Both the position numbers and the translations under genes were made by a program. Shown piece by piece: positions 3,198 through 6,079 of a stretch of DNA of 64,000 nt (positions within the stretch are counted from its first letter, which is position 1; the number at the start of each line of letters is the position of its first letter). Origin of the DNA: Burkholderiales bacterium (GTDB lineage Bacteria > Pseudomonadota > Gammaproteobacteria > Burkholderiales > Casimicrobiaceae); assembly GCA_025354165.1 (NCBI GenBank), contig JANXNI010000086.1:1-64000 (forward strand), read 5' to 3'. The notes beneath the pieces are model-generated. The model was given only the letters and a program-made list of their open reading frames with translations, searched no databases and was not told where the DNA came from.

Positions 3198-4148
3198 CTA
3201 GCCTCCGTCTCGTCGGAGAACGTCGCCGTTTGCGTCCTGAAGCAGGTAGGCGACGGCTTCCGTTTCCAGAAAATCGGCTGCGTCTGCGCCTTTGAGCATG
3301 GCGATGGTCGACAGCGCACCGGCCAAAACGCACGTAGTTCCGACCACGCTAACGGATCGCCAATGGGACACTGGCCAGCCCGTTTTTGGATTCAGGATGT
3401 GGCAATAGCGTTTGCCGTCCACTTCGATAAATCGCTCATAGTCGCCACTGGTGGCGATGGCACCGTGAGTCAACGGCAAGCTTGCGAAGCAGCGATTGGG
3501 CTCGGTCGCCGGCGCGCGCGGATCGCGAATGCCGATTCGCCACGCGGCTCCCGCTAGCTGCGGACCGATGGCGCGGACGTCGCCGCCGAGGTTAATAAGG
3601 CCATGCTTGACGCCGCTGGTTTCCAGTAATGTGGCCCCACGATCCACCGCGTACTCTTTGCCAAAGCCACCGAAGTCCAGTTCCATACCGGGCAGTGTTA
3701 GCGCGATTTTGTTGCCATCCCAGGCGACGTGTTGCCAGCCGACTAACGGCAACAATGATTCGAGCGTATTTTGATTGGGCAGCCGCGCACTTTTGAAATC
3801 CCAGGCGCGTCGTAGCACCCCCGACGTGCAGTCAAACAAACCGTCGCTCATCGCGAACAAATTCGCCGCGAAATTCAGTAAATGTGCGGTCTCGTCATCC
3901 ACTTCAATGGCAGCACCCGTAGGCCCCGCCGCAGCGTTAATTTGCGACAACAGGCTGTCGCTCCGATAGCGGGAATACTTCGATTCAATGCGACACACTT
4001 CGGCGATTGCAGTATTCGCAAGGCGTTTGGCGTCCCTCTGAGAAATCCCCGCCAAGCGGATTTCGCACGGACTCGCCATCGCAGAAAACTCGAAAGCAAA
4101 GGCTTCGCTGTCAGCCAAGTGAATTGCCCCGCACGAAGTTAAAGGCAC
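3198..4148 (-). CDS. apbE: FAD:protein FMN transferase (ApbE family)
   Basis: ApbE moves FMN from FAD onto a Ser or Thr of a target protein, using Mg. The sequence has the family landmarks: an early FSAMASPCEIRL, SKYSRYRSDSLLSQIN, LDFGGFGKEYAVDRG (about 174-188), NLGGDVRAIG, and the C-terminal HILNPKTGWPV. Length, 316, is usual. It is the last gene of the tlpA-DUF4266-DUF3570-apbE operon, 9 bp after DUF3570, so DUF3570 is a candidate substrate. The start is odd. The first possible start is a GTG giving MPLTSCG, which looks like the tail of a lipoprotein signal peptide. The codons just upstream read in the same frame into the TAG stop of the DUF3570 gene, leaving no room for a full signal peptide. 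Confidence 0.9.
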   Translation of the reverse strand: MPLTSCGAIHLADSEAFAFEFSAMASPCEIRLAGISQRDAKRLANTAIAEVCRIESKYSRYRSDSLLSQINAAAGPTGAAIEVDDETAHLLNFAANLFAMSDGLFDCTSGVLRRAWDFKSARLPNQNTLESLLPLVGWQHVAWDGNKIALTLPGMELDFGGFGKEYAVDRGATLLETSGVKHGLINLGGDVRAIGPQLAGAAWRIGIRDPRAPATEPNRCFASLPLTHGAIATSGDYERFIEVDGKRYCHILNPKTGWPVSHWRSVSVVGTTCVLAGALSTIAMLKGADAADFLETEAVAYLLQDANGDVLRRDGG

Positions 4149-4157
4149 CGAAAGCAG

Positions 4158-5342
4158 CTAAAAGCGCCGACTAATTCCGATTTGCGCAAACTGGGCAGAG
4201 AAGACAGCCAGCCCTGGCGACCCGCCACCACCGAGCCGCCACGACGAGCGCTGTTGATAGAACTCGTACTTCAGATCCACGCTCCAGAGTTTGTCGATGC
4301 GCCACTCAAATTTGCTCCCGACCGTGACCGCACCGTACGACGACAGGCGCGCGTCAGCCGAGTAATATTTCGGCGGCGATTGCGAGTAGCCCGCCGGGTA
4401 CGGCTCACCGATTTCAGGGTCGTAAACCGGGTCGAAGTAGAACGAAGCCCGGCGCTGCGTGTAGTAGCGTGCTGTTGGCGTGATCACGAATCGCTCGCTC
4501 AGTGGCACCACCCATTCAACGGCTGCCGTGTGCGCCTGCACGCCAAAGTTGTCGTCGTAGAAACGATAACTGCTGCGCAATGTCGTGCTGTTGCCTTCAA
4601 AGAAATGGTTCCACCGGACGAGCGCAATGGTCTGGTTTTTGTTACGTGGACGCTGATCAACAAGTTTGTAGGGATCGTTGAAATAACCGCGCCCGCGAGC
4701 GTAGGTCAGATTCACTTGTGCGAGATCGTTTTTGCCCAGCACTTGAGTGACGCCAATCATGCCTTCGGTTACTTCTTTGTGTTCGTTGACCACCAGCTCG
4801 TTGACCGGATTAATTACGTCGCGCGACGTCGCTAGACCCGCCGCAAACGTCGTATTGTTGTCGGCGCTGGAAAACCGTGCATCAAGCGCGACCGCGTTTG
4901 ACCGATAGTCGTGCTCGTCAGAATAGGCGTAGCGCAGGCCCACCGCTGCCCGGTCAAAGTAGCGCGTGAGTTTGACGTCGGTTGCGGTGCGCCGATCTTC
5001 CATGTGCGACGCGCCCGAAATGCTCGTGTGCCAGCGTGGTGATGCGCCAGAAATATTGTCTTGAACGGCGGTGGCTTCCAATGACCACGCACCGGCAATC
5101 GGGAACACGAGATGTACGGAGGGGGCGATGACTTTGATGCGCTCTAGACCCGGTTGTGAATCCTTGTAGGCCTGAAGCTTGACCGTCACCACGCCTTCGT
5201 CAGGCGCATTTTCTGCGTGCGCATTTGTCGCGTGGGTAACCATCACGCCGGGAAGCGCGAGCGCTGCCAATGTAATCGCGCCGGGACGTTTTGCGCTGGA
5301 TGCCGGTTTAGTTACAACCACAACCACCGCCCCCCACACCAT
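4158..5342 (-). CDS. DUF3570 outer-membrane beta-barrel-like protein with an ApbE-type motif
   Basis: A DUF3570 protein, predicted from its alternating amphipathic strands and aromatic C-terminal residue (ends ISRRF) to be an outer-membrane barrel. The chosen start (ATG at 5342) overlaps the end of the DUF4266 gene; GTG codons just downstream are possible too, and the open frame continues upstream to 5411. A hydrophobic signal sequence (ITLAALALPGVMVTHATNAHA) precedes the mature part. About 95 residues in, DNISGAS (bases 5040-5060) fits the ApbE target motif Dxx(S/T)GA(S/T), and a second SGAS without the Asp follows at 5007-5018. Function is unknown. Operon neighbours TlpA, DUF4266 and ApbE point to an extracytoplasmic redox role, which is inference. 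Confidence 0.85.
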   Translation of the reverse strand: MVWGAVVVVVTKPASSAKRPGAITLAALALPGVMVTHATNAHAENAPDEGVVTVKLQAYKDSQPGLERIKVIAPSVHLVFPIAGAWSLEATAVQDNISGASPRWHTSISGASHMEDRRTATDVKLTRYFDRAAVGLRYAYSDEHDYRSNAVALDARFSSADNNTTFAAGLATSRDVINPVNELVVNEHKEVTEGMIGVTQVLGKNDLAQVNLTYARGRGYFNDPYKLVDQRPRNKNQTIALVRWNHFFEGNSTTLRSSYRFYDDNFGVQAHTAAVEWVVPLSERFVITPTARYYTQRRASFYFDPVYDPEIGEPYPAGYSQSPPKYYSADARLSSYGAVTVGSKFEWRIDKLWSVDLKYEFYQQRSSWRLGGGGSPGLAVFSAQFAQIGISRRF

Positions 5343-5541
5343 AGCCGCCCGATGCGCTTTCTTTGCTGAAATAAATGTGTTGAGTAAACGCCTGATCCAG
5401 CGGATCCGCATCCATCGTCATCTCTTTTCGTGCCAGATTTCCCTTTTCCCAGGCCTGCGGCGGTTGCATCGCGCACCCGCTGGCGAGGCACGCGAGAGCG
5501 GCGAGCAGTAACGTGCGGTTAAGGCGGCTTTTCATGATCAT
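5308..5541 (-). CDS. DUF4266 small lipoprotein
   Basis: A 77-residue lipoprotein. The signal peptide ends in the lipobox ASGC, so Cys23 should be acylated. The mature chain has the family's QPPQAWEKGNLARKEM segment, then TMDADPLDQAFTQHIYFSKE, and ends in a glycine-rich tail with two cysteines, GGGGCGCN. The CGC end could bind a metal or form a thiol pair for the neighbouring thioredoxin-like protein; this is inference. The gene starts 4 bp after the TlpA-like gene and its 3' end overlaps the DUF3570 start, so the genes are translationally linked. DUF4266 and DUF3570 commonly travel together. Function unknown. Confidence 0.88.
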   Translation of the reverse strand: MIMKSRLNRTLLLAALACLASGCAMQPPQAWEKGNLARKEMTMDADPLDQAFTQHIYFSKESASGGYGVGGGGCGCN

Positions 5542-5545
5542 TGTT

Positions 5546-6079
5546 CTACTGTTTCTTCATGTTGTCGAGCGCCGCAATGATGGCCGCTTCGATTGAATTT
5601 TTCTCGCTCTCGCGAAAGCCGGTGTGTGCGTAAACCACGCGCCCATTGCCGTCAATCAGATACGAACTCGGCATGCTTTTTACGGCAAATTGTTTGGGCG
5701 TTTCACCCGATGAGTCGAACGCCACCTGAAATTTTGCAGGCACCTGCGTCAAAAACTTTTCCGCGTCCGCCGCCTTTGCGTCGACATTGATGGCAAGCAC
5801 ATGTAAACCGCGATCAGCGTACTTCGCCTGCATCTCGTTCATCCACGGGAAAGATTGCTTGCACGGGACGCACCACGAGGCCCAAAAATCGACATAGACG
5901 AGTTTGCCCTTAAGGCTCGCGGAATCCAGCTTGCCGCCACTGCTGGTGAGCGAAAACGTGGGCGCTGTGTTGCCAACGTCCAACGCCTTCACCGGCGCAC
6001 TGGTAAGTGAAAGTATCGCCAGACTGGTGGACGCTACAAATGACAAGGCACGCGTTCGGTGGTTGATGAGATCAGTCAT
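5546..6079 (-). CDS. TlpA-like periplasmic thioredoxin-fold protein
   Basis: A thiol-disulphide oxidoreductase of the TlpA/ResA type, probably periplasmic. After a signal sequence (LSFVASTSLAILSLTSAPVKA) come the AhpC/TSA-like opening GNTAPTFSLTSSGGKL and the active site FWASWCVPCKQSFP, with the CxxC pair. The cis-proline loop is KSMPSSYLID. The start chosen is ATG at 6079 (MTDLINHRTRAL), with GGATATGAA upstream. The open frame extends to 6154, but the extra residues would put a hydrophilic stretch before the signal peptide. It is the first gene of the four-gene operon with DUF4266, DUF3570 and ApbE, and could reduce cysteines in those proteins or help deliver a cofactor. That role is inference. 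Confidence 0.88.
   Translation of the reverse strand: MTDLINHRTRALSFVASTSLAILSLTSAPVKALDVGNTAPTFSLTSSGGKLDSASLKGKLVYVDFWASWCVPCKQSFPWMNEMQAKYADRGLHVLAINVDAKAADAEKFLTQVPAKFQVAFDSSGETPKQFAVKSMPSSYLIDGNGRVVYAHTGFRESEKNSIEAAIIAALDNMKKQ

Follow-up and report, generated by a model that had tools for sequence, protein, structure and literature searches.

Can a flavin transferase that has no export signal, and that is without a residue regarded as catalytic, load flavin onto an outer-membrane protein? The question is raised by a four-gene operon in the 64,000-nucleotide stretch of a Burkholderiales draft genome analysed here (hereafter the window; the genome comprises 4.7 Mb in 97 contigs and is 95% complete). 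Pfam searches on the open frames of the window identified, on the minus strand from 6079 to 3198, genes for a TlpA/ResA-like thioredoxin, a DUF4266 protein, a DUF3570 protein and the flavin transferase ApbE, in that order. The central idea, the flavinylation of DUF3570 within this type of gene cluster, is already published; the Pseudomonadota variant described below was found undescribed, and the activity of its ApbE is predicted from sequence. We favor, with moderate confidence, the interpretation that the operon is the Pseudomonadota form of the published DUF3570/DUF4266/thioredoxin/ApbE redox module, with flavin mononucleotide (FMN) on a surface loop, loading of the flavin in the cytosol, a glutamate (Glu191 in the numbering of FmnB) as metal ligand, and an electron route from thiols to flavins. 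Across the sampled Pseudomonadota the enzyme expected to load the flavin shows both deficits, while the acceptor motif is still conserved. The features of the operon, in the direction of transcription, are as follows.

5546..6079, minus strand: TlpA/ResA-like thioredoxin with a WCVPC motif and, by eye, a signal-peptide-like N-terminus; ATG at 6079 (Pfam Redoxin 6.2e-23, AhpC-TSA 9.2e-20)
5308..5541, minus strand: DUF4266 small lipoprotein, lipobox LASGC by eye, C-terminal end GGGGCGCN (PF14086, 7e-23)
4158..5327, minus strand: DUF3570 predicted outer-membrane barrel, with a GTG start that overlaps the tail codons of DUF4266 (PF12094, 1e-60)
5040..5060, minus strand: flavinylation motif 1, DNISGAS, with the predicted FMN-bearing serine codon at 5040-5042 (Ser57 of the model)
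5007..5018, minus strand: motif 2, SGAS, with the predicted second FMN-bearing serine codon at 5007-5009 (Ser68 of the model)
3198..4148, minus strand: ApbE of the DUF3570-linked clade, without signal peptide; signature KE...GGD...S...H...AGALST (PF02424, 9.6e-78)
3642..3668, minus strand: GFGKEYAVD stretch of ApbE, with Glu where the aligned unlinked ApbEs have Gly (FmnB position 191)

The original prediction of a tightly packed set of four genes, with gaps of 4 and 9 bp and one overlap, was borne out by the Pfam matches and the coordinates: the 4 bp gap separates the genes for the TlpA-like protein and DUF4266, and the 9 bp gap those for DUF3570 and ApbE. Judged from the sequence, DUF3570 most likely starts at the GTG at 5327, inside the stretch that encodes the DUF4266 CGC tail, giving an overlap of 20 nt. 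Related loci were obtained by a genome scan (the best 80 of 309 relatives, none titled Chlorobium; loci L034-L071 and L072-L151 come partly from the same genomes), and an in-frame GTG or ATG lies inside the last 40 bases of DUF4266 at 49 of these 80 scan loci. The four-gene order is kept at 69 of them. Both key proteins belong clearly to their families, with DUF3570 scoring 206.2 bits against PF12094 (cut-off 25) and ApbE 261.8 bits against PF02424 (cut-off 25.6), the latter in agreement with the fold comparison.

The predicted site of modification is conserved. Among the open frames of at least 100 codons in the window, DNISGAS in DUF3570 is the only match to D..[ST]GA[ST], and a second SGAS, which has no leading Asp, follows 11 residues later; both had been noted in the original prediction. 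It had also claimed that the full motif is absent from the other operon proteins, and a pattern search agrees, finding no [ST]GA[ST] in the TlpA-like protein, DUF4266 or ApbE. When the window DUF3570 was shuffled 20,000 times, 0.3% of the resulting sequences contained the full motif. Across the scan loci, site 1 is present in 80/80 and site 2 in 72/80, the remaining eight reading SSAS, and all 38 DUF3570 sequences from the window and 37 loci fetched around DUF4266 matches fit the pattern. A chance motif is ruled out by this conservation. In Chlorobium (C. luteolum), the one case of covalent FMN on this family demonstrated in print, DUF3570 is flavinylated at two [S/T]GA[S/T] motifs and the gene cluster has been described (Meheust et al. 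2021, eLife, PMC8238504). With a flavinylated homologue and a conserved motif, DUF3570 as the substrate of ApbE is well supported; the original prediction fell short in taking only the first motif as full, whereas both are used in the homologue, and in overlooking that the metal Asp and the export signal are missing from the partner ApbE.

A set of 398 genomes sampled from the phylum allowed the motif to be compared with the presence of ApbE, a comparison that had been set as a test of the flavinylation hypothesis. DUF3570 was found in 29 of these genomes, so the family is not peculiar to the genome of the window. Thirty loci were fetched from the sample, 20 with the clade ApbE at the locus, nine without it and one (L215) that ends at a contig edge. 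The [ST]GA[ST] motif occurs in DUF3570 at 21/22 loci with the clade ApbE vs 3/9 without it (phylum sample plus the window and L051; L215 has the motif but was excluded because its contig stops beside DUF3570). Together with the scan loci this outcome favors the hypothesis, although the nine loci without the clade ApbE represent one subfamily with its own neighborhood and are not independent, so that the associated p value (Fisher, 7e-4) overstates the evidence. This second DUF3570 subfamily is accompanied by TlpA and DUF4266 and has lost the flavin motif at six of the nine loci; six of the nine (L259-L264) have an ordinary ApbE 6-18 kb away. One of them (L261:1005-15165) also encodes a protein of about 900 amino acids with a hydrazine-synthase-alpha-like domain, an SH3/OMP-barrel protein and a laminin-G protein. 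In a separate case, on a plasmid of Hymenobacter volaticus (L230), the DUF3570 motif reads SSAS for SGAS and ApbE is split over two reading frames.

The position of the flavins can be approached through the predicted structure of DUF3570. The AlphaFold model, built with 32 aligned sequences, has 16 strands (predicted local distance difference test, pLDDT, 90; predicted template modeling score, pTM, 0.86), and the best matches among solved structures were the BamA, PelB, BcsC and CymA barrels (Z 18-22); a sequence search of the PDB with DUF3570 gave no chain at E values up to 1. The even strand number and the C-terminal aromatic residue (Phe350, invariant in 32/32 aligned sequences, with some remoter relatives ending otherwise) are those of an outer-membrane protein, and DUF3570 is predicted to be a 16-strand outer-membrane barrel. 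The loop that joins strand 3 to strand 4 lies, in the model, on the face away from both termini, and the predicted FMN serines 57 and 68 are found at either end of it. All seven turns on the terminus side comprise 3-5 residues, and the loops on the opposite side range from 2 to 39 residues. The 27 invariant residues are distributed unevenly, with 20 in the distal loops and strand ends (161 positions), six mid-strand and one in a tail; the terminus side (91 positions) has none. In outer-membrane proteins, the side away from the termini usually faces outwards. Because both SGAS serines lie in one loop on this conserved distal side, the model suggests that the flavins of DUF3570 are probably at the cell surface, where they would offer a definite site for the electron transfer, so far unexplained, of DUF3570 clusters.

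The strongest alternative, which we nevertheless regard as rather unlikely, places the flavin loop in the barrel lumen or facing the periplasm, and would make the module a periplasmic redox carrier. Residues 60-67 of the loop have pLDDT under 50, so its modeled path is unreliable, and a periplasmic location is expected for the thiol partners. This arrangement is harder to reconcile with the even strand number, both termini lying on the side of the short turns, and with the location of every longer loop and most invariant residues on the other side. The words 'barrel', 'porin' and 'catalytic' were not found in the main text of PMC8238504. At two loci, L050 and L051, the DUF3570 open frames exceed double the normal length (1002 and 912 residues), and the clade ApbE lies alongside.

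The anomaly of the system lies in its ApbE. FmnB numbering was transferred onto the window protein through an alignment to solved ApbEs. Like the canonical ApbE, Ftp and FmnB proteins of V. cholerae, E. coli, T. pallidum and L. monocytogenes, it has the shared fold (model pLDDT 77; Z 21.6-23.7 when compared with the 19 listed ApbE structures) and keeps the equivalents of Lys190, Ser257 and His273, as well as Arg262, the last judged by eye. It differs from them in having Gly in place of the metal-binding Asp301, Glu in place of Gly191, and no signal peptide. The combination Lys, Glu, Asp, Ser, His and Gly at positions 190, 191, 216, 257, 273 and 301 was found in every one of the 118 distinct DUF3570-type ApbEs that are complete at the six positions (140 entries, 122 distinct after identical sequences were collapsed), whereas the 26 complete unlinked ApbEs all have Gly191, never Glu191, and carry at position 301 Asp (21), Glu (2), Gly (2) or Asn (1). 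In a quick tree of 78 rows out of 168, made without removing the trait columns, 52 DUF3570-type rows separated from 26 unlinked rows with a support of 99 (Shimodaira-Hasegawa-like approximate likelihood ratio test, SH-aLRT). One ApbE from a genome without DUF3570 (L163, genome G009) stays in the sets of 140, 122 and 118 sequences, in the signal-start count below and in the tree. On these sequence comparisons the partner ApbE forms a separate clade in the sampled Pseudomonadota, and Glu191 probably replaces the lost Asp301 as metal ligand.

Whether such an enzyme is active is the next point to be weighed. In FmnB, Asp301 coordinates both Mg ions, and replacing metal ligands, Asp301 among them, by Ala left little or no activity (PMC8906456); the change from Asp to Gly could therefore mean that the clade ApbE is inactive. 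Pointing the other way, Asp D283 of an E. coli Ftp variant no longer contacted the metal when ADP was present (PMC4767422). If inactive, the clade ApbE might serve as a scaffold, a regulator that binds flavin adenine dinucleotide (FAD) or an FMN carrier, with DUF3570 flavinylated by another enzyme or not at all, and the uniform Gly at the metal-Asp position of all 118 sequences would be consistent with such a role. We consider this unlikely: the Lys190, Ser257 and His273 equivalents and Glu191 are just as invariant in the same sequences, Arg262 is kept in the aligned blocks viewed, and the acceptor motif is retained at all 80 scan loci. Moreover, a PF02424 search of the 95%-complete genome of the window returned this ApbE as its single match. 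At two other loci (L159 and L164, genomes G095 and G079) a different ApbE type has Gly at position 301 but Asp four residues on (AGxLSD), which suggests that loss of the metal Asp may have happened more than once.

The second departure concerns export. By hydropathy, the window ApbE has neither a signal peptide nor a lipobox, its frame being closed three codons upstream of the GTG start. A signal-like start was detected in 2/129 DUF3570-type ApbEs vs 19/28 unlinked ApbEs, signal peptides being judged by hydropathy alone and the 129 retaining identical sequences. In 34 of the 129, fewer than 12 open codons precede the domain. Since the clade ApbE has no export signal, it most likely acts in the cytosol, on a barrel precursor that is still unfolded and has yet to pass through Sec. 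In co-expressing cells, DUF3570 was recovered mostly in the insoluble pellet, yet flavinylated (PMC8238504), which implies that a cytosolic, unfolded barrel can probably be an ApbE substrate. Signal-less ApbEs are known from Klebsiella pneumoniae, where the enzyme is cytosolic, and as ApbE domains of L. pyrrhocoris and T. brucei (PMC12052999); their targets are intracellular fumarate reductases, whereas the expected target here is an exported outer-membrane barrel. No description of the residue swap, or of a signal-less ApbE with an exported target, was found in the open-licence literature, and the available portion of PMC8238504 contained no mention of metal-Asp loss or of an absent export signal in the partner ApbE. 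That the clade ApbE instead reaches the periplasm without a recognizable signal, and modifies the barrel or a periplasmic intermediate there as canonical systems do, is very unlikely, for although canonical ApbEs are periplasmic, a cytosolic ApbE failed to rescue an apbE knockout in an early study (PMC12052999) and one Bacteroidota version (Hymenobacter, L231) has a signal-like start, hydrophobic starts in just two of 129 clade ApbEs, the short open stretches before many of the domains and the closed frame of the window gene all speak against it.

The association of the clade ApbE with DUF3570 extends beyond shared operons. A DNA pattern for the KEYA stretch matches 18 of the 398 phylum genomes, of which 15 are among the 29 with DUF3570; the remaining three carry the clade ApbE without DUF3570. 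Where the DUF3570 locus has no apbE (12 genomes), an ApbE of the Glu191/Gly301 type is encoded elsewhere in 11, namely G004, G006, G013, G017 and seven from the set of eight, G504-G511. Of those seven, six also have ApbE paralogues of the Asp type, and in G507, a contig-edge case, no clade ApbE was found. In the genome of the window, a profile search returned no FMN_bind match (DUF2271 was not searched for), and hence no other obvious ApbE target of that kind. The pairing is not exclusive, because four genomes (G009, G146, G206 and G260) carry the clade ApbE alone: no DUF3570 was detected in them even at E up to 10, and custom profiles identified no convincing DUF3570 at their loci (L314, L311, L312 and L313, respectively). 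The clade ApbE may have another partner in such genomes. At L313, the frame at 1465-2949 beside the clade ApbE looks secreted and has a CxxCH motif.

On the thiol side, the TlpA-like protein matches NCBIfam models of the ResA/TlpA/DsbE type, all below their cut-offs, and the WCxPC motif is present in most aligned TlpA relatives, L052 and L054 excepted. The tail of DUF4266 ends in GGCGCN in 80/80 scan loci. Gene association, both here and in PMC8238504, suggests DUF4266 and the TlpA-like protein as candidate thiol partners of the flavin protein. A DsbD-like frame is present at 60/80 scan loci, which makes the thiol association stronger than the window itself shows, and DsbD, just downstream of apbE, is the main conserved neighbor of the four genes. 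At 50 of the 60 loci it shares the strand of DUF3570 and opens at most 2.5 kb downstream of that gene, and at 37 of the 53 loci that have both a DsbD-like frame and ApbE it opens at most 300 bases from the end of ApbE. At L092, a full DsbD (NCBIfam 549.6 bits vs a cut-off of 330) overlaps the end of apbE. Such frames occur at 5/30 phylum-sample loci, downstream in three, and the genome of the window has one DsbD_TM match, on another contig, in a protein that combines DsbD_N, DsbD_TM and thioredoxin domains and scores under the NCBIfam DsbD cut-off. Published DUF3570 clusters likewise include forms with DsbD and 316 without it (PMC8238504). The clusters of the DUF3570/DsbD type described by Meheust et al. 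have the same four components and two [S/T]GA[S/T] sites in DUF3570, and related loci here include DsbD; the window locus, with DUF4266 and a thioredoxin-like protein and without DsbD, corresponds to their DsbD-less form. The DsbD finding leaves the likelihood of the readings considered above unchanged, because the anomaly lies in ApbE.

Several further observations weigh against cytosolic loading of DUF3570 by a Glu191 enzyme and its connection to periplasmic thiols. At L231, a Hymenobacter operon whose DUF3570 is annotated in two parts, ApbE has the metal Asp as well as the signal-like start, and at least one Bacteroidota form is therefore unlike that of the Pseudomonadota. The cloning of the C. 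luteolum ApbE was likened to a signal-peptide-truncated construct, implying a signal peptide (PMC8238504), and the ApbE proven in print may thus be of the ordinary type. The DUF3570 of one locus with the clade ApbE (L204) reads TGSS in place of TGA[ST], and the sole [ST]GA[ST] of L214 has no leading Asp. To these are added the four genomes with the clade ApbE alone, and the lack of any DsbD-like frame in the window or in the 38 nearest-relative loci (0/38). It is possible, and here proposed tentatively, that a cytosolic ApbE clade with Glu191 for Asp301 loads the barrel before export, and that paired surface flavins are wired to periplasmic thiols via the CGC-tailed lipoprotein. If true, a covalent flavin cargo would pass through Sec and the barrel assembly machinery (BAM), and electrons would travel from thiols to surface flavins without cytochromes. 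Either ApbE chemistry accepts another metal ligand and export tolerates chains that bear FMN, or the loading of flavin onto the barrel works otherwise.

According to the interpretation favored here, the dedicated clade ApbE would attach FMN, derived from FAD, to the DUF3570 barrel precursor, most likely in the cytosol and ahead of Sec export. The barrel would then reach the outer membrane with FMN on one serine, or on two in the same loop, at the distal mouth, which is probably extracellular. Electrons would be exchanged among the DsbD-like protein, the TlpA-like protein, the CGC tail in which the DUF4266 lipoprotein ends and the DUF3570 flavins, and would pass, in either direction, between these flavins and a partner outside the cell. 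Ferric iron is one candidate for that partner, a guess prompted by the association with VIT1 in PMC8238504.

The surroundings of the operon include other conserved or recognizable genes. A cluster of frames upstream of it is conserved at 36/127 loci (e.g., L115:4044-6185), and the upstream stretch of L115 contains one frame with HYDIN/ASH-type Ig domains and a weak, sub-cut-off cytochrome-c match. In the window, two neighboring DUF3617-type genes occupy 1926-2848, the one at 1926-2417 scoring under the Pfam cut-off, and at 57-1861 on the minus strand a family-2 glycosyltransferase (57-743) adjoins a radical-SAM/DUF3641 protein (842-1861).

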